From Oligoflexales bacterium (GTDB lineage: Bacteria; Myxococcota_A; UBA9042; DTJE01), in the NCBI GenBank assembly GCA_012840965.1, contig DUVQ01000171.1, forward strand, positions 1 through 32,970: 32,970 nucleotides of DNA, written 5' to 3'. Of the stretch, positions 1,768 through 27,179 are shown one piece after another (within the stretch, counting starts at the first letter, position 1; each line of letters opens with the position of its first letter). Both the position numbers and the translations under genes were made by a program. Below the pieces are notes generated by a model that did no database searches, was not told the DNA's origin, and saw nothing but the letters and a program-made list of their open reading frames with translations.

Positions 1768-2896
1768 CCCCTATATTGATTCCAAAACCACCCACCACAA
1801 ACCTTTGTTTATACAAAAGCAATCCAATAACGCCAGCCAAGGCCGTTGCATCCTTGTAGTACATGGCACTCTTCAACTCTTTATCTGTAAGCCCCAACTT
1901 AGCAAAAGTGGCCTTGCAAAACTCCAACTCCCGAGCCTCAACCTCATCCAGTGATACCGTGGCCTTTTTCAATTTACAGTCATACTTGAAAATGATGCCA
2001 TCAAACAACTCATAGATTGGGGAGCCAGGACCCAATTGGCTGTCGGTAACTGTTACCAAACGGTCCATTTCGTACAAATACTTTTGAAAGGCCAGGGAAA
2101 GATATGTAACCATTGGAAAAACATGATCTTTTATATTGACCGAATGAGCCAGACGCAAAAGCTCACGATAAGTGGCCTTCCCACACTTTTTAAAAAGCGT
2201 CACTATGGAATCCGCCGCTTCACGAGCCCTAGTGTCCCAGGCCATTCCAGTAACCATCACCTTTGCACTGTTCAATATGGATAAGTTCTTGTAACACTGG
2301 TAAATTTTGTCACTTGCCTCATAGTTATCAATAGTCAAAATGTTGTGCATTCGGTCAGCCATTTTAACCATGGCAGCAATATAGGCGACTTGTCTGTCTG
2401 CATTGTTAAAGACATCATTGATCGATTCGTAGTAATTGTCGCTCCTTTTTCTGGTAAGCGCATCGGTGGCGCCAACTATTAGTCTAGCTTCAGCTGGTCT
2501 TACGTCCACCTCATAGCACAAATCCGATATTTCTTGGCTAAAATGCATCCGAATTGGGTCAGAAGCATCAGGGTGAAGTTCCTGGTATTCGTTGAAAAAA
2601 TGGTCGGTTCTTTCCTCTGGCACATCGTGTAAAAGACCAATGGCAATAACGTATGGTTTGCATCCAGCCAGCTTTAAAAAACGGGCCACATTCGTTGGAT
2701 GGACAAAGGCTTGCTGACCATTTTTTCGCCTTCGCATCCTAGAGTAAAGCTCTTGTGCCAACTGGTAAACCCTTGTGATAAGCCCTATGTCTGTAGGATC
2801 TTCAATACCAGTCAGCAACTCTTCCAACGTCACAGGCTCTGGACGAGCGTGCCAAATCTCGAAAGGCTTGTATTGCTCCCTATTGTTTCTGTCCAT
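1757..2896 (-). CDS. RelA/SpoT-like HD-domain protein, second of a tandem pair
   Basis: The 379-residue protein has an N-terminal HD phosphohydrolase fold. FVHPTNVARFL (His66) is followed by GLLHDVPEER (His90-Asp91) and later MVKMADRMHNILT (Asp181), the same order as the hydrolase domain of Rel/SpoT alarmone enzymes. No synthetase, TGS or ACT domain is present. The roughly 150-residue C-terminal half is unrecognised but shared with the upstream paralogue (TYLSLAFQKY, ELFDGIIFKY, YYKDATALAGV). The start at 2896 was chosen because GGAGGG precedes it at good spacing and the N-terminus then aligns with the paralogue; an earlier in-frame start at 2932 lacks both. It overlaps the upstream HD gene by 17 bp, which implies translational coupling. 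The EE after HDxP replaces the ED pair needed for (p)ppGpp hydrolysis in Rel enzymes, so the substrate is uncertain. Confidence 0.8.
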   Translation of the reverse strand: MDRNNREQYKPFEIWHARPEPVTLEELLTGIEDPTDIGLITRVYQLAQELYSRMRRRKNGQQAFVHPTNVARFLKLAGCKPYVIAIGLLHDVPEERTDHFFNEYQELHPDASDPIRMHFSQEISDLCYEVDVRPAEARLIVGATDALTRKRSDNYYESINDVFNNADRQVAYIAAMVKMADRMHNILTIDNYEASDKIYQCYKNLSILNSAKVMVTGMAWDTRAREAADSIVTLFKKCGKATYRELLRLAHSVNIKDHVFPMVTYLSLAFQKYLYEMDRLVTVTDSQLGPGSPIYELFDGIIFKYDCKLKKATVSLDEVEARELEFCKATFAKLGLTDKELKSAMYYKDATALAGVIGLLLYKQRFVVGGFGINIGARR

Positions 2897-4055
2897 CAAA
2901 CCCTCCATCCCTGTGCAAACTGTCGACACCACTTACCACATACCCTTCCTTGTACAGCAACAATGCAACCACTTCACCAAGTGCCAAAGCGTCCTTGTAG
3001 TGAATCGCAACCAGCAACTCATCGTCAGTCAAATGCTCATTCGAAAAAATGTCTTTGCAGTATTCGAGTTCATTGTCCACAATTTTCTGGAACGCCTCGT
3101 GATCACGATAAAGTTTACGTTCGTACTTGTGAATGATCCCGTGGAAAAGATTGGGGATAGACACACCAATCTCCAAAGTTCCATCAGTTATCTCATCAAG
3201 CCCACCCTTTTGATGGTGGTATTTCTCAAGGCCCAAAGAAAGATAGGCGAGCACTGGAAATACATTACTATCGCTGCGTTCAGCATGCGTAAGGGATTGT
3301 AATACTTGGAAGGTTGCCTTCCCACACTTCTTAAAAAGCAGTTCAATCGCTTTGGTGATTTCATCATCTACAGATTTCAGCGGATGCTGGTGTCCTTTTG
3401 CCTTTATGTTTGTCAGTAACGCCTTGGCATAGTTCAGCAAAATCACATTCTTGAAACACTGATACAAGCGGTCTTCATCCACGTAGTTTTCAATTGTTCT
3501 TATGTTGTGCAGACGATCCGCAAGCTTGATTGCAACTGATATCAGCCTTACATCGTAGTCATAATGACTAAAAATCTCACCAATCCCTTCGTAAAATCGA
3601 TCCGCGTCTACGTGTGTTAAAACCAGCACAATTTTGTAGACAAGTTCCGCGAGATCACGGTCATAACCGGTCTCGTCTGTAGCTTTCAAAATCTCCCCAT
3701 GAACAAACTTTCCGAGTTCCTCCTTGTTGATCTCGGCATCCTTACCTTTCTCCTCAATCAGCAATCTGATGGGCTCGTCAACGGTGTCGTGCAGTATGGC
3801 CGCTGCAATAACATGCGGCTTACAGCCGGCCATTTTTACAAAGTGGGCGACGTTGGTTGGGTGGGTAAACCGCGACTCACCATTACGCCTTCTTTTTGAT
3901 TCCCTGACAATGCCCTGGGCAATCTCGTAACAAGCCTCGATAAATCGAACATCTGGCTCTGGCAACCCATCAGTCAGGATATTGACATCAACAGGTTCTG
4001 GTGAAGGTGGCCAGATATCGAATTTTTCAAAAACCTCAGCAGATCTATCAGGCAT
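2880..4055 (-). CDS. RelA/SpoT-like HD-domain protein, first of a tandem pair
   Basis: This 391-residue paralogue of the following gene has the HD-domain signature FTHPTNVAHFV (His65), AAILHDTVDEP (His89-Asp90) and AIKLADRLHNIRT (Asp180). These match the metal-binding positions of the Rel/SpoT hydrolase domain. The C-terminal half (AYLSLGLEKY, NLFHGIIHKYERKL, IHYKDALALGEVVALLLYK) is shared with the twin and not recognised otherwise. The ATG at 4055 is preferred because GGAGG lies 6 bases upstream; a TTG at 4061 would sit directly against that ribosome site. A terminator-like hairpin upstream (4109-4128) separates it from the lipoprotein gene, so the HD pair probably has its own promoter. Rel enzymes carry HDxxED; this protein has DE, so (p)ppGpp hydrolysis cannot be assumed. 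Confidence 0.8.
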   Translation of the reverse strand: MPDRSAEVFEKFDIWPPSPEPVDVNILTDGLPEPDVRFIEACYEIAQGIVRESKRRRNGESRFTHPTNVAHFVKMAGCKPHVIAAAILHDTVDEPIRLLIEEKGKDAEINKEELGKFVHGEILKATDETGYDRDLAELVYKIVLVLTHVDADRFYEGIGEIFSHYDYDVRLISVAIKLADRLHNIRTIENYVDEDRLYQCFKNVILLNYAKALLTNIKAKGHQHPLKSVDDEITKAIELLFKKCGKATFQVLQSLTHAERSDSNVFPVLAYLSLGLEKYHHQKGGLDEITDGTLEIGVSIPNLFHGIIHKYERKLYRDHEAFQKIVDNELEYCKDIFSNEHLTDDELLVAIHYKDALALGEVVALLLYKEGYVVSGVDSLHRDGGFDGQKQ

Positions 4056-4108
4056 TACCAACCTCCGTGAGCTTTTGATTTTGCTAATTGAATTTGAGAA
4101 TTACAAGC

Positions 4109-4164: not shown

Positions 4165-5265
4165 TTATTCAAATGGCACCTCTGCTATTACAGGAAAATG
4201 GTCCGATGGATAGCGACCATCATAGCTTGTGGTCACGACCTTTGTTTCTATTGTTGGGAGAAAACCGTTTTCAGAGCGCAAAACCCAGTCAATTCGCGCA
4301 CCCTCGGTGTTGCCGGTAAAGGCATGGTAGGTGCCAACATCCTCTTTTCCAACCTCAACCCAGGTATCAATCAATGGAAATTCAACGCCCTTGTCATTTG
4401 GAAGCTCACCAACCAAAATCTTCCACGCCTCGCTACCAGCTGCGATATTAAAGTCACCAGTCAGAATCACAGGCAAGCCATCTGCAACATCAGCAATGAT
4501 TTTCAAAGTGATTTCCGCAGAACGTTCCTGGATGCGATCTTTCGCAACATAGTCCCAGTGAGTATTTACAAACATGTACACCCGGTCATTTCCAACATAG
4601 CGCAGTTTGGCCCAAGTGATAATCCTAGGTATGAATTGCTCTTCAGATATTTTAACCAGCTGCTCTTCAGGGGTATCACTTAACGACCACGTCTTCGATT
4701 CGACCAGCTCAAACAGGTGTCGTTTAAACATAATCGCGTTTGTTTCCTCGATCTCAGTGCCGTTACGAGTCTCACCAACCCAGTCGTATTGTGGCAGGCG
4801 CTCAAGCATATGTTCGAGCTGAATGGGCCAGCTTTCCTGCGTTCCTATGATCATTGGGTTTTCCTCGGTGAGCATCTGCTCAATCAGCTCAATCCGGTTA
4901 AACCATTCGTTTTCGTCCGAGTCTCCAAAAAGAGTCCGAATGTTAAAGGTCATCACCTTCAGCACAGTTGGTGGTGGTTCCTGGATGTCAGCGTCTTCGC
5001 CATCCGGGCCTTCGGCGTCAGCATCTGGAACATCTAAATCGTCAGTGTCAGTATCCTGGTTGTCGGCGGCCTGGAGGTCGTCATCCTGGTTGTCGGGGGC
5101 CTGGACGTCGGTATCTGGCTGGTCAAAATCTTGGAGGTCGCCATCCTGGTTGTCCACCTCGTGAGTATCCACCTCTTGAGTGTCGGTATCCTGGACATCG
5201 CCGGTACCATTGCATCCAAGGCTAATTAAAAGCCCAAAAACCAAAGCAGCATAAAGCCTACTCAT
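4165..5265 (-). CDS. Secreted lipoprotein with endonuclease/exonuclease/phosphatase (EEP) domain
   Basis: The 366-residue product begins with a lipoprotein signal ending ISLGC (Cys18). A roughly 85-residue Asp/Gln-rich linker follows, made of loose DNQDxDLQ and DxQxPD units, and then an EEP-fold hydrolase. EEP catalytic motifs are all visible: MTFNIRT (Asn), GTQESW (Glu), VNTHWDY (His), LTGDFN (Asp/Asn) and the terminal SDHFPVIAE (Asp-His). Such domains cleave phosphodiesters in nucleic acids, phosphoinositides or sphingomyelin; the substrate here is unknown. It should be anchored in the cell envelope with the acidic linker as a tether. The ATG at 5265 is supported by GGAGGGAGC just upstream; a start at 5289 would add eight residues before the signal and lacks that site. 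It follows the pirin remnant by 25 bp. Confidence 0.86.
   Translation of the reverse strand: MSRLYAALVFGLLISLGCNGTGDVQDTDTQEVDTHEVDNQDGDLQDFDQPDTDVQAPDNQDDDLQAADNQDTDTDDLDVPDADAEGPDGEDADIQEPPPTVLKVMTFNIRTLFGDSDENEWFNRIELIEQMLTEENPMIIGTQESWPIQLEHMLERLPQYDWVGETRNGTEIEETNAIMFKRHLFELVESKTWSLSDTPEEQLVKISEEQFIPRIITWAKLRYVGNDRVYMFVNTHWDYVAKDRIQERSAEITLKIIADVADGLPVILTGDFNIAAGSEAWKILVGELPNDKGVEFPLIDTWVEVGKEDVGTYHAFTGNTEGARIDWVLRSENGFLPTIETKVVTTSYDGRYPSDHFPVIAEVPFE
5040..5190 (-). repeat. Imperfect Asp-rich coding repeat in EEP lipoprotein linker
   Basis: This stretch of the EEP lipoprotein gene is internally repetitive. Plus-strand words such as CCTGGTTGTC and GGCCTGGA recur with short periods and encode Asp-rich units of the type DNQDxDLQ and DTDVQAPD. 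Similar acidic linkers follow the lipobox in two unrelated lipoproteins of the window (12540-14855 and 22496-23878). Shadow frames across it also look repetitive and are not genes. Confidence 0.7.
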
Positions 5266-5290
5266 GCTCCCTCCATCAGCACCTTTCAAG

Positions 5291-5608: not shown

Positions 5609-5648
5609 TAACCTTACGCGTTAGTTTCTTAAAACTAGGGAGGTTATG

Positions 5649-6368
5649 ATGAACCAGGATTCAAAGCTTATGAAAAACGAAAGATTGCGTATTTCGACGG
5701 CAGTTATATTTGGCAGTGTTGCGTTTTATGTGGTCTGCACAAGTGGATGTACGTCAGATGTCGTCAGTGGGCCAGAGGCGATAGAGGCTTTGTGCAAACA
5801 ATTGGAAGCCTGTTCAATGCTTGATACATGGGATTATAAAAGCGTTGAGCATTGTAAAAGCAGTGAAGCTCGTGGATGGGACAAGTACGAAGGATGCCTA
5901 GACAAAATGACAACTGTTACCCTTTGTTATTCAAATCTTAAATGCGATCAACTTTCGTATGTGCGAGCGGCGGCACTGTGTCGGGAGCCAAGGACCGATC
6001 TTTACGATTGCATGGTAAAGCTCTACGAGGGTGAGGGCGATGACTCGGACGATCTCGGGCATGACTACTATGGATATGATGCCTCTGAGGATGAATTGGT
6101 TGATGGGTACTGCGAAACGCTTGAAAGCTGCGGCAACTTAAAATCCTGGGCTTTTGAATCTTTGGACGACTGCAAGGACCAACAATATGATAATTTTAGA
6201 CGCCTTGCCCCATGCAAAACTGAATTTGGGGCGGTGTTAAGCTGCTGGATGAGCCAAAGTTGCGAAGCACGAACTCCCGCCGAGTATCGGAACCATTGCC
6301 AAGACATTAAACAGGACCTTGATAATTGCATTAGGCAAGCTTCACTTGAGGGTAAATTGCCATCCTAG
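5649..6368 (+). CDS. Eight-cysteine-domain lipoprotein A (two domains)
   Basis: First of four tandem paralogues. A signal peptide ends VVCTSGC (lipid-attachment Cys34). It is followed by two copies of a domain with cysteine spacing C-x5-C-x13-C-x13-C-x9-C-x5-C-x11-C-x9-C, separated by an acidic Asp/Glu/Tyr linker. The mature protein is predicted to be envelope-anchored and, with eight cysteines per domain, probably disulfide-bonded. I do not recognise the family and assign no function. Of two adjacent ATGs (5646, 5649), the second is preferred: GGAGG lies 5 bases before it, and its N-terminus MNQDSKL then matches the MYQDSKL and MRQDSRL starts of paralogues C and D. It starts divergently 40 bp from the pirin remnant. 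Confidence 0.85.
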   Translation: MNQDSKLMKNERLRISTAVIFGSVAFYVVCTSGCTSDVVSGPEAIEALCKQLEACSMLDTWDYKSVEHCKSSEARGWDKYEGCLDKMTTVTLCYSNLKCDQLSYVRAAALCREPRTDLYDCMVKLYEGEGDDSDDLGHDYYGYDASEDELVDGYCETLESCGNLKSWAFESLDDCKDQQYDNFRRLAPCKTEFGAVLSCWMSQSCEARTPAEYRNHCQDIKQDLDNCIRQASLEGKLPS

Positions 6369-6515
6369 CCTAGCAAATCGGTAGGTTCGATTAGTCTGTG
6401 TTTGCACGTCTCGAATGGTTTTGTATTACCGCGTGATGATACGTCTTTGAGCGAACGTATGCGCTCGAACATGACCAACTCGAACATTATTGCAGTAGGG
6501 AAGGTCTAAGGATTC

Positions 6516-6542
6516 ATCCGTTGGCGGATTGTGATTTTTTTT
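6516..6542 (+). terminator. Short hairpin plus T-tract between lipoprotein genes A and B
   Basis: ATCCG, loop TTGG, CGGAT is followed within five bases by eight consecutive T. It lies at the end of the 212-bp gap after lipoprotein A and could end that transcript. It overlaps the proposed -35 of the lipoprotein B promoter. The stem is only 5 bp. Further upstream in the same gap (6449-6466) GAGCG/CGCTC forms another small inverted repeat; nothing else is recognised there. Confidence 0.4.
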
Positions 6543-6550
6543 GCTAGGCT
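6521..6550 (+). promoter_or_regulatory. Putative promoter of lipoprotein B (extended -10)
   Basis: TTGGCG, 18-bp spacer, then TAGGCT preceded by TGC, giving the extended -10 pattern TGnTAnnnT. It ends 30 bp before the GTG start of lipoprotein B. The same TGnTAG(G/T)CT word precedes lipoproteins C and D and the pyrophosphatase gene at similar distances, which is the main support. Confidence 0.5.
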
Positions 6551-6580
6551 TGCCTAGTGGCTCAATAATAGGAGGTTCTT

Positions 6581-7321
6581 GTGAGTCAAAAGTCAAAATT
6601 TAATGGAAACAGCAACTTGGCGATTCTTACAGCGGTTTTATTTATCAGCGTGGCCTTGTCTGGGTTCTGGACCACAGGGTGTGACACAAAAGAGGCCAGT
6701 GGAGACGAAGTTGTGGAAGTTTTGTGCAAAAAGCTTGAAAGCTGCTCGAAGCTTGGAGAGTGGAACTACGATAGCTATGGCGAATGCACGAAACATGAAC
6801 TAGAGTCATGGAACGAGTATGATGAATGCCATACCGAGATGGAGGACCTTGCTAATTGCGCTGCAGACCTCAAATGTGATCAATTGACTCTCGACCACTT
6901 GATAGTGCTATGTAAAGACGAGGGAAGAGCGCTTGGAGTCTGCATGGAAAAGGCTGATGAGGAAGACCAAGAAGATGCTGATGGGGATGACCAAGAAAGT
7001 CCCGAAGATGACACAAATAATCCTGAAGACACCCCCGAAAACGGCTTCTCGGACGAAGATTTGGCTGATGCCTTCTGCGGGAAGATTGATAGCTGCAGCG
7101 AATTCGAGTTGTGGGAATACACTTCCAAGTCTGATTGCTACCAGTCCATTATGTACGATTTTGAAGACGTTGGCCCATGCAGACCTGAATTTGTGGATGT
7201 ATTAACGTGTGCTGAAGAAGTTGTTTGTGAAGTATTGAGCCTTGATGAGCTTGATAATTATTGCTACAACGTAATGCAGAGTTTTGAAGATTGCTTGATT
7301 GATGCCGGGCTGGTGGAATAA
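6581..7321 (+). CDS. Eight-cysteine-domain lipoprotein B (two domains)
   Basis: Second tandem paralogue, 246 residues, starting with GTG after GGAGGTTCTT. The signal peptide ends FWTTGC (Cys34). Two domains follow with exactly the same spacing as in lipoprotein A (5, 13, 13, 9, 5, 11, 9 residues between successive cysteines). They are joined by a roughly 35-residue linker rich in Asp, Glu and Pro (EDQEDADGDDQ, PEDDTNNPEDT). Between cysteines the domain keeps features such as SCSKLGEWNY and a Trp/Phe-x2-Tyr/Val pattern before the fourth cysteine, and reads as mostly helical. Function is unknown. A 104-bp gap with its own promoter-like sequence precedes the next paralogue. Confidence 0.85.
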   Translation: MSQKSKFNGNSNLAILTAVLFISVALSGFWTTGCDTKEASGDEVVEVLCKKLESCSKLGEWNYDSYGECTKHELESWNEYDECHTEMEDLANCAADLKCDQLTLDHLIVLCKDEGRALGVCMEKADEEDQEDADGDDQESPEDDTNNPEDTPENGFSDEDLADAFCGKIDSCSEFELWEYTSKSDCYQSIMYDFEDVGPCRPEFVDVLTCAEEVVCEVLSLDELDNYCYNVMQSFEDCLIDAGLVE

Positions 7322-7360
7322 GCCTGGTCCAAAAAAACGAATCTTTTAGTAGTTATTCTA

Positions 7361-7390
7361 TTTACACCCCATGAACACTTCTGTTAGTCT
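7361..7390 (+). promoter_or_regulatory. Putative promoter of lipoprotein C
   Basis: TTTACA, 18-bp spacer, then TAGTCT with TGT before it (extended -10). The 14-mer ACTTCTGTTAGTCT containing the -10 recurs exactly upstream of lipoprotein D at nearly the same distance (35 versus 33 bp before the ATG). This suggests the paralogues are each driven by a copied promoter. Confidence 0.6.
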
Positions 7391-7425
7391 CTAGTTTCGA
7401 CAGTTTTGAGGCTAAGGAGGACCTA

Positions 7426-8682
7426 ATGTATCAGGATTCAAAGCTTATTAAGAGCACTGGCTTGTTGGTGGCAGCTGTTTTTTGCAGTTTGGCTTTGGTC
7501 TGGACCACTGGATGTGGTTCAGATGATGCTGCCAAGGGGGCAGAAGTAACGGAAACTATGTGCAACAAGCTGAAGACCTGTTCCAAGCTTGACGTCTGGG
7601 GTTATGAAAGCCTTGATCAGTGTACAGAGGATATTCAAGGGGTGTGGAACAAGTACAAAAAATGCCATGACGAAATTGAGGCCGTTGTCAAATGCGTTTC
7701 AGGTGTTGCTTGTGAAGAAGCTGAGCCCGAAAAACTGGCAGTTCCATGTGGGGCCAAATATAACGCACTTATGACCTGTATAGAAGAGGTTGATGCAGAG
7801 CCCGATGAGCAAGAACCGGACCCCAGACTAAATGACATGATGGAGGATATGTGCGACAGGATTGTCGACTGTTCAAAGCTTGATGTCTGGGATTACGCAG
7901 ACAGGAAACAATGCATGAGGGATAGTATGTGGTACTGGAGCCAGTATGGACAATGCATTGACTCCCTGGAAGCTGCAGCTAATTGTGCCCTGGGTCTTGA
8001 GTGTGAACAAATTGAGCCTCAACTAATCGGAGAGCAGTGTCCGCAATGGCAGGCAGTAGAGGACTGCGTGGCAGGGGGAGATGAAAATCCAGATGAGCAA
8101 GAACCGGACCCCAGACTGAATGCGATGATGGAGGCGATGTGTGACAAGATTGTGGACTGTTCAAAGCTTGATGTCTGGGATTATGCAGACAGAGAACAAT
8201 GCATGAGGGATAGTATGGGGTACTGGAGCCAGTATGGGCAATGCATAGACCCTCTGGCAGCTACTGCAGACTGTGTCCTAGATCTTGAGTGTGAATATGT
8301 TGAGCCTCATCTAATTGGAGAGCAGTGTCCGCAATGGGAGGCAGTAGAGGACTGCGTGGCAAAGGTTGATGAAAATCCACGGGAGCCAGACCCGGATCGT
8401 CCAGGGGATTTTGAGGTGGCTGAAGCTCTGTGCCATAAGCTTTATGGCTGTTCAAAGCTTGACACCTGGAGTTTTGAAAGCCTTGAACATTGCATTGACG
8501 ACAGTTTACAGCAGTGGACCCAGTACGAACAATGCCGACGTGAAATGGTAGCTGTTGGCGAATGCGCTGTAGGTGTTCCATGTGAGGAGATTGACCCTGA
8601 GCAATTAGTAACTCACTGTGGGGAACAGTGGGACATATTTTCGCGCTGCATGGAAAAGGTTGATGAGGACCGGAATCGGTAA
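7426..8682 (+). CDS. Eight-cysteine-domain lipoprotein C (four domains)
   Basis: Largest of the tandem set, 418 residues, with GGAGG before the ATG. The lipoprotein signal ends LVWTTGC (Cys30). Four eight-cysteine domains follow, separated by acidic Pro-rich linkers (DEQEPDPR). Spacing is 5, 13, 13, 9, 5, 11, 9; domains 2 and 3 have 8 instead of 9 in the last interval. Domains 2 and 3 come from a 288-bp duplication about 88% identical by hand count, so the array has expanded fairly recently. The conserved core around the second cysteine is CSKLDxWxY. It looks like a rod- or bead-like surface lipoprotein. I do not recognise the domain and infer no activity. Confidence 0.86.
   Translation: MYQDSKLIKSTGLLVAAVFCSLALVWTTGCGSDDAAKGAEVTETMCNKLKTCSKLDVWGYESLDQCTEDIQGVWNKYKKCHDEIEAVVKCVSGVACEEAEPEKLAVPCGAKYNALMTCIEEVDAEPDEQEPDPRLNDMMEDMCDRIVDCSKLDVWDYADRKQCMRDSMWYWSQYGQCIDSLEAAANCALGLECEQIEPQLIGEQCPQWQAVEDCVAGGDENPDEQEPDPRLNAMMEAMCDKIVDCSKLDVWDYADREQCMRDSMGYWSQYGQCIDPLAATADCVLDLECEYVEPHLIGEQCPQWEAVEDCVAKVDENPREPDPDRPGDFEVAEALCHKLYGCSKLDTWSFESLEHCIDDSLQQWTQYEQCRREMVAVGECAVGVPCEEIDPEQLVTHCGEQWDIFSRCMEKVDEDRNR
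7804..8379 (+). repeat. 288-bp in-frame tandem duplication inside lipoprotein C
   Basis: Two adjacent 288-bp (96-codon) units, 7804-8091 and 8092-8379, each begin GATGAGCAAGAACCGGACCC and end GATGAAAATCCA. Hand comparison gives about 35 differences, roughly 88% identity. Each unit encodes one linker plus one eight-cysteine domain, so duplication adds exactly one module without changing frame. Confidence 0.9.
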
Positions 8683-8728
8683 GAACTTGATGTTTTAGGG
8701 CGCGGTGTAGGGAAAGCCGCTAAATCTT

Positions 8729-8757
8729 TTGTAACCAATCAATACTTCTGTTAGTCT
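8729..8757 (+). promoter_or_regulatory. Putative promoter of lipoprotein D
   Basis: TTGTAA, 17-bp spacer, TAGTCT with TGT preceding. The 14-mer ACTTCTGTTAGTCT (8744-8757) is identical to the one upstream of lipoprotein C. GCTAAGGAGG before the start codon is also shared. Confidence 0.6.
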
Positions 8758-8790
8758 TCAGGCCTGGAATCTAAAGCTAAGGAGGCACAG

Positions 8791-9186
8791 ATGCGTCAGG
8801 ATTCAAGACTTAATAAGGGCGGCAAGATTAGGTTTTCAATTGCATTTTGCAGTGTGGCCATTTTTGCGATCTCGATTGCCGGATGTGGTTCAGATGGCGG
8901 CAAAATAGATGCTCTTTGCTCAAGGCTGGACACCTGTTCCAAGCTTGATCAACTGGGCTACACAAGTTATGACCACTGTGTAAGCTCAAACAAATTTATA
9001 TGGGATGGAGTTCCACAATGTAATGATGCAATGGCAGATTATATGAGCTGTGTTGCTGGTCTTGAATGTGAGCAGCTGACACAGATCCAACTTGTAGAGC
9101 TTTGCGAAGACGAGGTGCATGCATACATGAATTGTTCCCAGCCAGTTGCTGATGAACAAGATGAGGAGGAAGAGCATCTGGATTGA
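8791..9186 (+). CDS. Eight-cysteine-domain lipoprotein D (single domain)
   Basis: The shortest paralogue, 131 residues, with AAGGAGG before the ATG. The N-terminus MRQDSRLNK resembles those of A and C. The signal peptide ends SIAGC (Cys32), the best lipobox of the four. One eight-cysteine domain follows with the standard spacing 5, 13, 13, 9, 5, 11, 9. The protein then ends in an acidic tail DEQDEEEE that resembles a linker with no next domain. The phosphomannomutase gene starts 26 bp after the stop, so the two are probably cotranscribed; whether this has functional meaning is unclear. It could represent the minimal functional unit of the family. Confidence 0.83.
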   Translation: MRQDSRLNKGGKIRFSIAFCSVAIFAISIAGCGSDGGKIDALCSRLDTCSKLDQLGYTSYDHCVSSNKFIWDGVPQCNDAMADYMSCVAGLECEQLTQIQLVELCEDEVHAYMNCSQPVADEQDEEEEHLD

Positions 9187-12338: not shown

Positions 12339-12539
12339 GCCTGCCTCCAAATAACCAAGGTCTGATGTAACTATGCAAAGTAAACTCCAACTGCGGTATT
12401 ATCTACACACAAAATAAATCCACAACTAAAAAATTTTGGTCAAAAATAATAAAAGAAAAAAATTAGCCAGTTGCACTCTAAAAAGGTGAACTTTTCGGGA
12501 TTAACGTGTAGGATTTCGCAGCTTGTATTGGAGGTGCCT

Positions 12540-14855
12540 GTGAAAAGACAATCTTTTAAAGCTTTTAGACTCGCGACAGCATTAACCATGGCTGTAGCCT
12601 GCGGTTTCGTTGCGTGTGGTGACGATGTTGATGACAAAACTGATGTCCTCAAACCTGATGCGGTTGGCGACTCTCACTTGGATTCGGAAACTCCGGGTGA
12701 AGACATAGATGACGTTGATAGGCCGGACACGGATGTAGAGCCCGACGATGGCGTAGAGCCTGATGACGGTGTGGAGGCTGGTGATGATGGCGAAGAAGTT
12801 GACGTTGAACCAGACATGGAAGAGCCTCCCATGCCAGAATTGCTCACCAAGGTACCACTTGTTGCAGTACCGGATCCATTGGCTGGCACTGATCTCGTCA
12901 GTTGCCCGGTTTATCTGGAGTCTAAAGAGGTAGTCAGTGAAGACCCGGAAGTGGCAGGGTACTATCTTTGCGACATCTACGACGCAAAAGTTGGTGAATT
13001 CGTTGACCCAGACCCATTGCTAGAAAGGGCCTATCTCTTTGATCGCTGGCGAGATCTTTACAACTCTCCGGTTGGCCAAGCCGTTGATCGGGACTTTAAC
13101 TCAGGTACTACGCCCGATATGCCTGAGGAAGAGTGGGCAACCCAAGAAAAGCTTTATGGCTATATGGGGTCTGGTGATGGCGGGATCTGGACTGGCTGGT
13201 CTACAGTAGCAGCCATCTTGCGATATTCCCAGACTGGGACAGAGGCCGACTATCAGCGCATGGAAAAACAGGTCTATGACATGTTGACGATGTATGAAGT
13301 AACCGGAATCCCAGGATATCTTTCACGTTACCATTTCCTTAAGGTCGCGGATAACGCACCAAGCACTAACGAGATTATTCTACGTCGCGAAAGTCAAATT
13401 GACCCTAATGATCATCACTACCGAACAATTCCGGAGTCTGCATTAAAGTACCTTCCAGATGAGTACCAGAATGGTTACACCGATGGCGAAGGAAATGTGT
13501 GGAAGGGTACACCCATGTGGAAAGGTCGCCCTTCCATTGACCAGAACACCGGCCCTATGACTTCCTTGCCTATGGCCTACCATCTGATCCGAGACCAGGA
13601 CATTAAGGACCGAATCGTCCATCACTTATCCTGTTATGCAAAGCGTTTGCAGCGCATTGAGATCATCAATATTCAATCAAATCCGGACCTGATTGCTGCA
13701 CTGATGGCTTACTTTGCCGCTGGCGAGCTCAGTATGGACGATGATGACATTGATTTAACCAAGCTGGACAAGGTCGTTGGTTATGTGTCCCGCCAAGTCA
13801 ACCCTGCCAACGAAGCTAAGTTTGACTTTGGCTGCCCAGAAACGATGCAGCTAGAACCTTGGCGCGTCATCGATGCTACAGCAGATGATTTCATGATAGA
13901 TTTGCTCAACTTGGTCCTAGACATGGGTACCAAAGATGGCCGTGAGGAGCAAATAGACCACTTCTACTGGCCGAGCATCCGTGGCGGCGATGCCATGCAC
14001 CTGATGCACCTAATGACAATGAACTACTACTTTACGGGTGACGAGCAATATCGTGAATTCCTCTATAAAGTGTTGATCAATGACATAAAGGCCGACCAAG
14101 TGATGCTGACAACCGGGGCCTTTTCTCTGCCCAAATACTGCAAATCATTCTACGGGGATCAAATCACCTACGGTCCGTGGTGGAGCTTTATTCATCTGCT
14201 TGATGACAGCCCTCTGCGAGACCAGGTGCAGCGAGCCTACCACGAGGAGATGTGGGACAAACTGGTTAAAGGCCACGCAAACTTAGACTTTGAGATCATG
14301 TATGCTGGGGCCCTAGAGCCAGAATTCGCCCTTGATAGGCAGGAGGCGCTGGATGAGGCACTTGCCTTGCTGCCATTCATGGGTGGTAATGGTTGGCTTG
14401 GTGGGAAACTGATTTTAGACGGGCCTCGACGCAATTACCCTCTAACACCCGATTTTGTGATGGAACACGCCCCAGAAGGCTACGAGGCAGTGTGTCCGAC
14501 CCAACACGAATACGATATTTGCACAGCCGAAGTCAACGTCATGGGTGTCAAGCTTCCAGCACTTGGTGTTGATCCCTTCGACTGTACTGGTAGCGACTGG
14601 GAATGCCCCCTTCCGGACGGGAAATGTACGGCCAAGATGACTAACAAGGCGCTGCCGCCACACCTGCGCCCTCACACGGATTTCCTATGGCAGCGCAATC
14701 CCTTTGCCATTGGCACATATCCAGGTGCTAACGGGGCCCGCCAGTACGCAGGATCGGACTATTCAGAGCCATACTGGAACGCAATGCGCTATGGATTCAT
14801 CACCGAAGGAATCGGACAAGTCCTAGCGTGGAAGAAGATACCAGTAGTCAAATAA
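12540..14855 (+). CDS. Large envelope lipoprotein of unknown function
   Basis: The 771-residue protein starts with GTG at 12540, placed by GGAGG 5 bases upstream. A start at 12471 would put 23 residues before the signal peptide. The signal sequence KRQSFKAFRLATALTMAVAC ends GFVAC, the likely lipid-attachment site. Next comes an acidic linker with VEPDDG repeats (residues about 55-100), and then about 650 residues rich in Trp, Tyr and Asp. Sequences such as LYGYMGSGDGGIWTGWSTVA, MEKQVYDMLTMYEVTG and GDAMHLMHLMTMNYYFTGDE look like paired helices, as in (alpha/alpha) toroid proteins including some glycosidases and lyases. That comparison is a weak inference; no catalytic motif is identified. Four cysteines cluster near the C-terminus (CPTQHEYDIC, CTGSDWECPLPDGKC). 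It stands alone, divergent from the Pit operon. Confidence 0.82.
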   Translation: MKRQSFKAFRLATALTMAVACGFVACGDDVDDKTDVLKPDAVGDSHLDSETPGEDIDDVDRPDTDVEPDDGVEPDDGVEAGDDGEEVDVEPDMEEPPMPELLTKVPLVAVPDPLAGTDLVSCPVYLESKEVVSEDPEVAGYYLCDIYDAKVGEFVDPDPLLERAYLFDRWRDLYNSPVGQAVDRDFNSGTTPDMPEEEWATQEKLYGYMGSGDGGIWTGWSTVAAILRYSQTGTEADYQRMEKQVYDMLTMYEVTGIPGYLSRYHFLKVADNAPSTNEIILRRESQIDPNDHHYRTIPESALKYLPDEYQNGYTDGEGNVWKGTPMWKGRPSIDQNTGPMTSLPMAYHLIRDQDIKDRIVHHLSCYAKRLQRIEIINIQSNPDLIAALMAYFAAGELSMDDDDIDLTKLDKVVGYVSRQVNPANEAKFDFGCPETMQLEPWRVIDATADDFMIDLLNLVLDMGTKDGREEQIDHFYWPSIRGGDAMHLMHLMTMNYYFTGDEQYREFLYKVLINDIKADQVMLTTGAFSLPKYCKSFYGDQITYGPWWSFIHLLDDSPLRDQVQRAYHEEMWDKLVKGHANLDFEIMYAGALEPEFALDRQEALDEALALLPFMGGNGWLGGKLILDGPRRNYPLTPDFVMEHAPEGYEAVCPTQHEYDICTAEVNVMGVKLPALGVDPFDCTGSDWECPLPDGKCTAKMTNKALPPHLRPHTDFLWQRNPFAIGTYPGANGARQYAGSDYSEPYWNAMRYGFITEGIGQVLAWKKIPVVK

Positions 14856-24587: not shown

Positions 24588-27179
24588 TTGCTTAATTTGA
24601 ATTTCATCCAAGGCAAAGGGACTAGCTTGGCAAGCTGGACTGTAGCAGTTTTCTTGCTGGCATCAGGGCTTCTAAAACCTGCCCTAGCCGCACCAATATT
24701 TAACTATCCTGTCACTGAAACCCAACCTGATGGGACGGTTGTGCATCTGTTAGCCAGCGGTGATGAGTTCTTTAACCGACTGCATGATGCCAACGGTTTT
24801 ACCATCTTGCGGGATCCAACTAATGGAAAGCTGGTCTACGCCGACAAGATTGGTGAGGCCCTGGTTCCAACCGACCTGCTTGTGGGTCATTCTGATCCAA
24901 TAAAGGTTGGATTGAGACCGAATTTGCTGCCATCCCCAAGATTGATCCAACAAAAGCGGATGAATCTTGAACCTGCCGTACCCATGCAGCTAAGGTCCGC
25001 ACCACTAACTGGCATTCTTAATAACGTGGTTGTATTTGTCAGATTTGCCGATGAAGACGAATTCGTTGAGCCCATGTCAGTGTTTGAAAGAATGTTTAAC
25101 GACATGGAAGGAGCTCCGTCTGTTCGAGCCTATTACCGTGAGGTTTCTTACCAAAAGCTTGATGTTGTCACCCACTTTTTTCCAAAACCTGAAGGTGACC
25201 AGATATTTAGTTATCAATCACAGCATCCAAGGTCCTACTATCGACCATACAATGTGATTACCAACCCAAATGGCTATAAGGATGAGGTCGAAGCGGTATT
25301 AAGGGAACAAAATCTGGTCCGGCTTGCTCTGGAAGAGATCTCCCATCTAATCACTCCTGACCTGAACCTCGATGGAGATAACGATGGTTTTGTAGATAAT
25401 GTCGTTGTAATTACAACTGGAGGGCCTGATGGTTGGTCTGAACTCTTGTGGCCCCACATGTCGGTGCTTCTTGCTGATCCTATGCGTATAAATGATTTGT
25501 ATGTCTTCTCCTATAACTGGCTAATGGCTGACTATCTCGATAATGGCAAAGAAGTCGGCGTGTTATGCCACGAACTCTTTCACACCCTGGGCGCCCCCGA
25601 TCTCTATCATTACAACCACGACGGATTTAGACCTGTTGGCCCATGGGACTTAATGGAATGGGACGCCTCTACACCACAACACATGAGCGCATGGATGAAG
25701 CACCGCTATGGCGGATGGATAGATGACATCCCCGAAATAACAACTAGTGGCAGATACACTCTTAATCCGCTGGTCGAACCAACAGGCCAAGCCTACAAAG
25801 TCGCCGTTCCTAGTGACAAGAGGCAATTTTTCATTTTGGAATATCGTTTGGCTGAAGGCTTGTTTGAATCTTCACTACCTGGTTCTGGGCTTTTGGTACA
25901 CCGGATAAACTCCAGGTATATGGGAAATGCTGATGGACCTCCTGACGAAGTTTACACGCTGCGGCCAGGTGGTTCTCCGAGCAATGACGGCGACATTAAC
26001 GATGCGGCGTTTTCAGCGGATAAAGGTCGAACCGCATTAAATTCAGAAACCGACCCCTATCCCTTCTTGTCGGACGGCCAAACAGTTGCTTTAGACATCT
26101 CCAACATCTCAGAGATCGGTGAAACCATCTCATTTGACATCTGCCTTCGTTTCCAGGCCTGCTACCAAAAAAACTGCGGCGACGATGGCTGTGGGGGAAC
26201 ATGTGGAGAGTGCGAGCCTGCTCAAGTATGTGACGAAGGCGTATGCAGTGATGAACAAGGTTGTGGCACTGCCCACGCCTGCCTTTCACAATGCGGACAG
26301 GATGATGCTGAATGCAAAGATTGGTGCCTTAGAGTGCCGGCTGTATGCCCCGCCCCTGAAAAGTGTCACGATGAGGGAACCTGCAACCTAGACACCGGCC
26401 TTTGTGAGTACCCAGTTCACAAGGACCACACCCCTTGTGACGACAAAAACGCCTGCACTCGCTTGGATGAATGCATAGATGGCGTTTGTGTTGGATTGGA
26501 CCCGGTGATATGTCCGGGAGAAGATCAATGTGTCAACGAAGGCAAGTGCAATCGTAGAACAGGTGAGTGCTCGAAGCCCTTGAAAGACCGAGGCACCCCT
26601 TGTGATGACGGAAACGCTTGTACCAAGGATGACAAGTGCGACCGCAAAGGTGTTTGCATCGGAACCGAATACAGCTGTGATGACCGCCAATGTCATACGG
26701 TGGCCTGTGGTGGTGAAGACGGCTGTATTTACACCCCATCCGACGAAGGCGCTCAGTGCGATGATGGAGACCCATGCACTGTGGATGACAAGTGTAATGA
26801 CGGAGAATGTGTTGGGGTGCCAATGAGTTGCGAATCGTCTGAATGTGCTGATGGCGTTTGCAAAGACGGAGAATGTCTGTTGGATTATTTTGAACCAGGA
26901 ACAGCCTGTGACGATGGAAATCCCTGTACTGTAGATGACCGTTGCAATTCTGAGGGCGTCTGTGTTGGGACCGAGCGTGACTGCGGCGGCACTGACGCGA
27001 TTGATGATGTGGGGGAACAAGAAGACTCGGCAGAGCCGGAAGCAGACACCAACGATGAGCCAGCCAAGAAATCTTCATCTTGCATGGCGACTTCAAATGT
27101 AACTGGCCCGTGGGCAACTACAGCACTTTTGGTACTTTTAGCGCTGGTAATTGTGTCACGCCGCAAAAACCCCGTTTAA
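24588..27179 (+). CDS. Secreted M6-family metalloprotease with Cys-rich repeats and C-terminal sorting tail
   Basis: The 863-residue protein starts at TTG with GGGGAG six bases before it. The Sec signal ends KPALA, with cleavage about residue 34. A propeptide region typical of immune-inhibitor-A-like M6 proteases follows (YPVTETQPDGTVV, GDEFFNRLHDANGFTI). The zinc site is HELFHTLGAPDLYH (residues 328-341). From about residue 524 come Cys-rich modules: CGDDGCGGTCGEC and four repeats of the type CDDGNPCTVDDRCNSEGVCVG. An acidic spacer leads to SSSCMATSNVTGPW, a hydrophobic stretch LLVLLALVIV and SRRKNPV. That Cys-TM-basic tail matches the MYXO-CTERM style of signal cut by myxosortases; no such sortase is encoded in the window. 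Expected to be a surface-attached or released protease. Confidence 0.92.
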   Translation: MLNLNFIQGKGTSLASWTVAVFLLASGLLKPALAAPIFNYPVTETQPDGTVVHLLASGDEFFNRLHDANGFTILRDPTNGKLVYADKIGEALVPTDLLVGHSDPIKVGLRPNLLPSPRLIQQKRMNLEPAVPMQLRSAPLTGILNNVVVFVRFADEDEFVEPMSVFERMFNDMEGAPSVRAYYREVSYQKLDVVTHFFPKPEGDQIFSYQSQHPRSYYRPYNVITNPNGYKDEVEAVLREQNLVRLALEEISHLITPDLNLDGDNDGFVDNVVVITTGGPDGWSELLWPHMSVLLADPMRINDLYVFSYNWLMADYLDNGKEVGVLCHELFHTLGAPDLYHYNHDGFRPVGPWDLMEWDASTPQHMSAWMKHRYGGWIDDIPEITTSGRYTLNPLVEPTGQAYKVAVPSDKRQFFILEYRLAEGLFESSLPGSGLLVHRINSRYMGNADGPPDEVYTLRPGGSPSNDGDINDAAFSADKGRTALNSETDPYPFLSDGQTVALDISNISEIGETISFDICLRFQACYQKNCGDDGCGGTCGECEPAQVCDEGVCSDEQGCGTAHACLSQCGQDDAECKDWCLRVPAVCPAPEKCHDEGTCNLDTGLCEYPVHKDHTPCDDKNACTRLDECIDGVCVGLDPVICPGEDQCVNEGKCNRRTGECSKPLKDRGTPCDDGNACTKDDKCDRKGVCIGTEYSCDDRQCHTVACGGEDGCIYTPSDEGAQCDDGDPCTVDDKCNDGECVGVPMSCESSECADGVCKDGECLLDYFEPGTACDDGNPCTVDDRCNSEGVCVGTERDCGGTDAIDDVGEQEDSAEPEADTNDEPAKKSSSCMATSNVTGPWATTALLVLLALVIVSRRKNPV

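Follow-up and report, generated by a model that had tools for sequence, protein, structure and literature searches.

A cluster of four genes in the window (the whole 32,970-nucleotide stretch of DNA that was analysed) appears to encode lipid-anchored envelope proteins that carry disulfide-locked four-helix binding modules on acidic tethers. We give this explanation as a whole a probability of roughly one half. Its structural part is highly probable. The binding role of the modules is a tentative assignment, a little short of even odds.

All four genes are on the forward strand. g1 (5646..6368) encodes two eight-cysteine domains, and its likely lipidated cysteine is at 5748-5750. g2 (6581..7321) also encodes two, joined by a long acidic linker between g2a and g2b (6959..7051), with the likely lipidated cysteine at 6680-6682. 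g3 (7426..8682) encodes four (likely lipidated cysteine at 7513-7515). g4 (8791..9186) encodes one domain followed by an acidic C-terminal tail (likely lipidated cysteine at 8884-8886). The open reading frames confirm the original prediction of four consecutive lipoproteins with 2, 2, 4 and 1 domain copies, and the acidic linkers that it described are present in the sequence. Two small corrections are that g1 could start at 5646 and that the start codon of g2 is GTG. Each gene is preceded by a good ribosome site. Each protein contains a hydrophobic N-terminal segment and then a lipobox-like cysteine (TSGC in g1, TTGC in g2 and g3, IAGC in g4), which is the N-terminal signal by which bacterial lipoproteins are recognised. 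The lipobox was read by eye, and Thr at -3 in three of the genes is a weaker fit. Among the Myxococcota relatives described below, 57 of 71 domain-bearing ORFs satisfied a simple lipobox rule. The products of g1 to g4 are probably lipidated.

An element of the form [TC]GnTAGnnT lies 27 to 44 nt upstream of the start in all four genes, against about 0.016 per gene expected from the window background; the motif was picked by eye first and counted afterwards. It occurs as a -10-like element 5' of g1 (CGTTAGTTT, 5619..5627, +) and as extended -10-like elements 5' of g2 (TGCTAGGCT, 6542..6550, +), g3 (TGTTAGTCT, 7382..7390, +) and g4 (TGTTAGTCT, 8749..8757, +). The g3 copy is within a 14-bp word common to g4, which may just have been co-duplicated with the genes. 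The count against background makes a separate promoter per gene, as had been proposed, plausible. A terminator scan and a sigma-70 scan gave results that did not exceed chance. The DNA between g1 and g2 contains a dispersed repeat (6448-6509) that ends in GTGGGGAAGGTCTAA and is also found at L002, L003, L004, L005, L007 and L008. Its 29-bp core has seven genomic copies, and some loci have an inverted GGGAAGGTCTAA end close by. It is possibly a MITE or an insertion-sequence end. A frame running past the stop of g1 was considered as coding and rejected, as its end is this dispersed repeat.

The nine domains, all located by profile search, are g1a (5769..6026), g1b (6087..6344), g2a (6701..6958), g2b (7052..7309), g3a (7537..7794), g3b (7828..8082), g3c (8116..8370), g3d (8407..8664) and g4a (8893..9150), all on the + strand. 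The predicted cysteine gaps, 5-13-13-9-5-11-9, were seen in seven of the nine, and the adjacent g3b and g3c have 5-13-13-9-5-11-8. Pairwise identity outside the cysteines is mostly 6 to 38% (78% for g3b/g3c). Because it is so low, g3b/g3c excepted, the fixed spacing is best read as constraint and not recent copying, and it supports the proposed structural selection on the cysteines. The claim of strict spacing is right inside the window cluster but fails in relatives. Those keep C1-x5-C2 and C4-x9-C5-x5/6-C6, and their loop lengths vary.

Models built with AlphaFold2 bear out the suggestion of a helical fold, as they are all-helical and of high confidence. The g3d model (36 sequences) had a pLDDT of 94.8 and a pTM of 0.81. 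It contains five helices (residues 2-14, 26-39, 41-55, 64-70 and 72-85), of which the last two are nearly continuous. The model of a ten-cysteine relative had a pLDDT of 91.7, a pTM of 0.81 and four helices. On these models, we are confident that the domain is a small four-helix fold. Foldseek against the PDB retrieved nothing significant (best E 5.0 for the g3d model and 3.3 for the ten-cysteine relative), and a search of a viral structure library gave no match.

Natural variation in the cysteines suggests how they pair. The ten-cysteine relatives have an extra cysteine four residues before C1 (C0) and another four residues after C3 (C3+4). By raw counts, which disregard shared ancestry, of 76 distinct domains, 13 have both, 63 have neither and none has just one. 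A first count had four apparent exceptions, which were misassignments of C3 and disappeared when a changed tie-break rule was applied uniformly. Three further domains contain C0 but lack C1 and have one helix-2 cysteine, whose distance to C4 fits the C3+4 position and is also compatible with C3 itself. Given an antiparallel helix pair, the co-occurrence of C0 and C3+4 implies C1-C3 pairing, and this variation supports a C1-C3 disulfide. The two CX9C arms were 9 with 8 to 11 residues in 71 of the 76 domains, 12 with 11 or 12 in four, and 10 with 11 in one. Since both arms lengthen together, C4-C8 and C5-C7 fit. They are supported more weakly than C1-C3; the co-variation comes from few lineages, and the 12-residue arms are mostly from one subfamily. 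C2-C6 would be the remaining pair, by elimination. We infer the actual disulfides from these co-varying cysteines.

The original prediction did not recognise the domain, and searches with the proteins, single domains and relatives likewise found no significant match in Pfam, NCBIfam or the PDB. The literature search retrieved no description of this domain and no mention of DUF6184, the Pfam family to which it is compared below. We searched 379 Myxococcota genomes with a broad family profile (A3, E 1e-4), seeded partly from those same genomes, and found matches in 55, roughly a seventh. The matches are mostly lipoproteins with variable loops. The reversed profile gave none in the Myxococcota genomes, even at a laxer E of 1e-3. 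On these profile matches, the domain is a Myxococcota-wide superfamily and is not isolated to the window. Single-domain relatives are common, and acidic or low-complexity S/T/D/E/G tethers recur. Similar arrays, whose presence in related genomes had been suggested as a check, were found. Tandem genes or multi-domain proteins occur at L109 (several adjacent genes), L110, L111, L114 and L118, and one 402-residue protein (L112) carries several domain copies, so that tandem duplication is recurrent. At L019 (3-1277, -), in a same-family genome, the single-domain lipoprotein is close to an ORF whose product carries thioredoxin-like CPFGVKALNAM motifs.

The genome that contains the window encodes, by profile search, the nine window domains and one distant single-domain lipoprotein. 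The latter is on contig C19, near unrelated sugar-pathway genes. A scan of the genome contigs with a g3-only alignment found no relative. A search of one congener (G001, 87% complete) gave no copy of the domain, and tblastn against plasmids gave no match.

The neighbours of the cluster encode HD-domain proteins, an endonuclease/exonuclease/phosphatase lipoprotein, a pirin-type cupin, a phosphomannomutase and a phosphate transporter with its PhoU-like partner. Those scanned are housekeeping genes, and no functional link to the cluster was found among them. Two adjacent, slightly overlapping ORFs (1757-2932 and 2880-4061, -) both have HD_4 domain matches. The putative lipoprotein (4165-5289, -) combines its endonuclease/exonuclease/phosphatase domain with a D/Q-rich acidic tether. 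A 794-residue ORF (12471-14855, +) had no Pfam match at E 0.001. An 863-residue protein (24588-27179, +) matches peptidase M6 weakly, and its C-terminal part is Cys-rich, of CDDGNACTKDDKC type. Elsewhere, the genome (G000) contains two VKOR matches (C159:5936-7138 and C131:48556-48999) and several DsbA-like (Thioredoxin_4) matches, which makes oxidation of exported cysteines feasible. On C159, the VKOR and a DsbA-like domain appear to be within one 447-codon open frame, likely a disulfide-forming fusion.

In the explanation that we prefer, the cluster would produce four lipid-anchored envelope proteins, each displaying one to four small four-helix modules via flexible acidic tethers. Four disulfides would probably lock each module. 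C1-C3 would hold helices 1 and 2 together. C4-C8 and C5-C7 would do so for helices 3 and 4, which form a twin-CX9C hairpin, and the two halves would be connected by C2-C6. The cell's VKOR/DsbA-type oxidation system would probably form them. Located either in the periplasm or on the cell surface, the modules would probably act in binding as rigid units that resist proteases, and their valency would be altered through duplication of units and genes. We infer the surface location and the binding function from these features.

The modules could instead be spacers or linkers in structural envelope lipoproteins that connect the outer membrane to another layer and have no specific ligand. The acidic tethers, the modular repeats, the lack of a genomic partner and the purifying selection described next all agree with such a role. 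It is unlikely; single-domain relatives, whose short length leaves little room for spacing, are common.

The original prediction had proposed a surface system that diversifies. Its rapid form would be a recognition, adhesion or decoy system whose copy number and sequence are pressed by phages, predators or prey. The tandem genes, the one to four domains per protein, the low identity among copies, the patchy distribution with its absence from the one congener searched, and the recurrent arrays elsewhere favour it. The latest duplication is against it. A 288-bp repeat unit of linker and g3b (7795..8082, +) is 86% identical to the following unit of linker and g3c (8083..8370, +), which by nucleotide comparison is the most recent duplication. 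For g3b/g3c, dN is ~0.10, dS is ~0.41 and dN/dS is ~0.25, based on 35 changes. This latest duplicate is under purifying selection. The CSKLDxWxY segment is retained in most copies, and no recombinase or defence genes were seen among the neighbours scanned. Rapid diversification is thus unsupported and, as an explanation, quite improbable. The recurring tethers and the low dN relative to dS favour rigid tethered binding modules over a rapidly diversifying decoy. The domain tree, which included duplicated outgroup rows, was poorly resolved; it weakly paired g1a with g2a and g1b with g2b, as expected from a two-domain ancestor.

The domain might also be a bacterial relative of the mitochondrial twin-CX9C (CHCH) proteins and of small-Tim-like proteins, and serve in the periplasm as a scaffold or chaperone. 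In the predicted model, C4-x9-C5 is in helix 3 and C7-x9-C8 is in helix 4, so that the C-terminal half reads C-x9-C...C-x9/10-C, the twin C-x9(10)-C pattern. The first arm is x9 in 71 of the 76 domains, and the ten-cysteine variants add a twin-CX3C hairpin. With an E limit of 5, profile A3 against PDB sequences gave 24 hits, almost all of them to CHCH-type proteins of mitochondria. The best was Mdm35 (E 0.0047), and others were QCR6, NDUFS5, TRIAP1 and CHCHD5. The result from a second, overlapping alignment was in agreement. One column-permuted and one reversed profile gave no PDB hits, so spacing or composition alone is insufficient for them. The best Foldseek hit of the window domain was a complex I chain (5xtc_u), which was insignificant. 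In Pfam, weak hits below the cut-off cluster in the CHCH clan (Cmc1, CX9C, CHCH, COX6B and COX17), judged so wherever curated cut-offs were shown.

Against this relationship, the E-values are marginal, with a Foldseek E of 5, and the match spans one hairpin, of a kind that can converge. No CHCH-clan model scored above its gathering score for the window domain or its relatives. The Pfam CHCH model, used in turn to reach family members, gave no match above its cut-off, and known prokaryotic intermediates were not found. We consider a role as a bacterial CHCH relative distinctly unlikely. We do not assign the domain to the CHCH family, and on the sequences convergence appears likelier than homology. 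True homology of the bacterial domain to the mitochondrial twin-CX9C and twin-CX3C proteins, with both hairpins in one module, is highly improbable. If it held, the proteins that fold through the Mia40 relay would have relatives among prokaryotes, in Myxococcota.

Redox sensing or metal binding in place of structural disulfides would suit highly acidic proteins with eight cysteines per 86 residues, but it is very unlikely given cysteines gained in pairs at facing helix positions, no conserved His or CXXC in the nine copies, an export signal and VKOR in the genome.

The rigid binding modules that we favour would belong to a domain family that is lacking in Pfam and NCBIfam and is found in about one-seventh of the sampled Myxococcota genomes. 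Its fold is predicted with confidence, and its proposed disulfide map can be tested. A family model would annotate many lipoproteins that now have no domain. The likeness to mitochondrial twin-CX9C hairpins opens to test a question on how that fold originated or evolved convergently.

Three known systems resemble the domain. DUF6184 (PF19682) also comprises Myxococcota lipoproteins of unknown function and similar size with eight cysteines. Its match to the domain family covers just 27 N-terminal columns (C-x5-C...YxSxxxC), in the first hairpin (hhalign score 22.3, P 4e-4, probability 34%; at most 3% in eight permuted controls). Unlike the window domain, its second half has cysteine spacings of about x12, x8, x13 and x5. 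No window protein reaches its Pfam cut-off, and the genome has no DUF6184 match. One remote relative (L021) is a DUF6184 member by Pfam search. Five small Myxococcota lipoproteins (L044, L045, L046, L047 and L063) have gaps of about 5-13-13-10-8-10. Their first half is window-like and their second half is more DUF6184-like, and they are possible intermediates. Small Tim proteins are twin CX3C proteins (PMC7909247). The ten-cysteine relatives similarly have C-x3-C in helix 1 and in helix 2; this CX3C occurs in relatives only and is absent from the window domains, and no sequence match to small Tim proteins was found. Two helices with C-x9-C and C-x9/10-C are the pattern of CX9C-CX10C proteins (PMC7909247). 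The mitochondrial twin-CX9C proteins (CHCH; Mdm35, TRIAP1, COX6B and QCR6) share these two CX9C/CX10C helices with the window domain. Unlike them, the window domain is part of a bacterial lipoprotein and has one helical hairpin more and, probably, two additional disulfides. In place of the Mia40 route, the window proteins have a lipoprotein signal, and their genome contains VKOR/DsbA-type genes.
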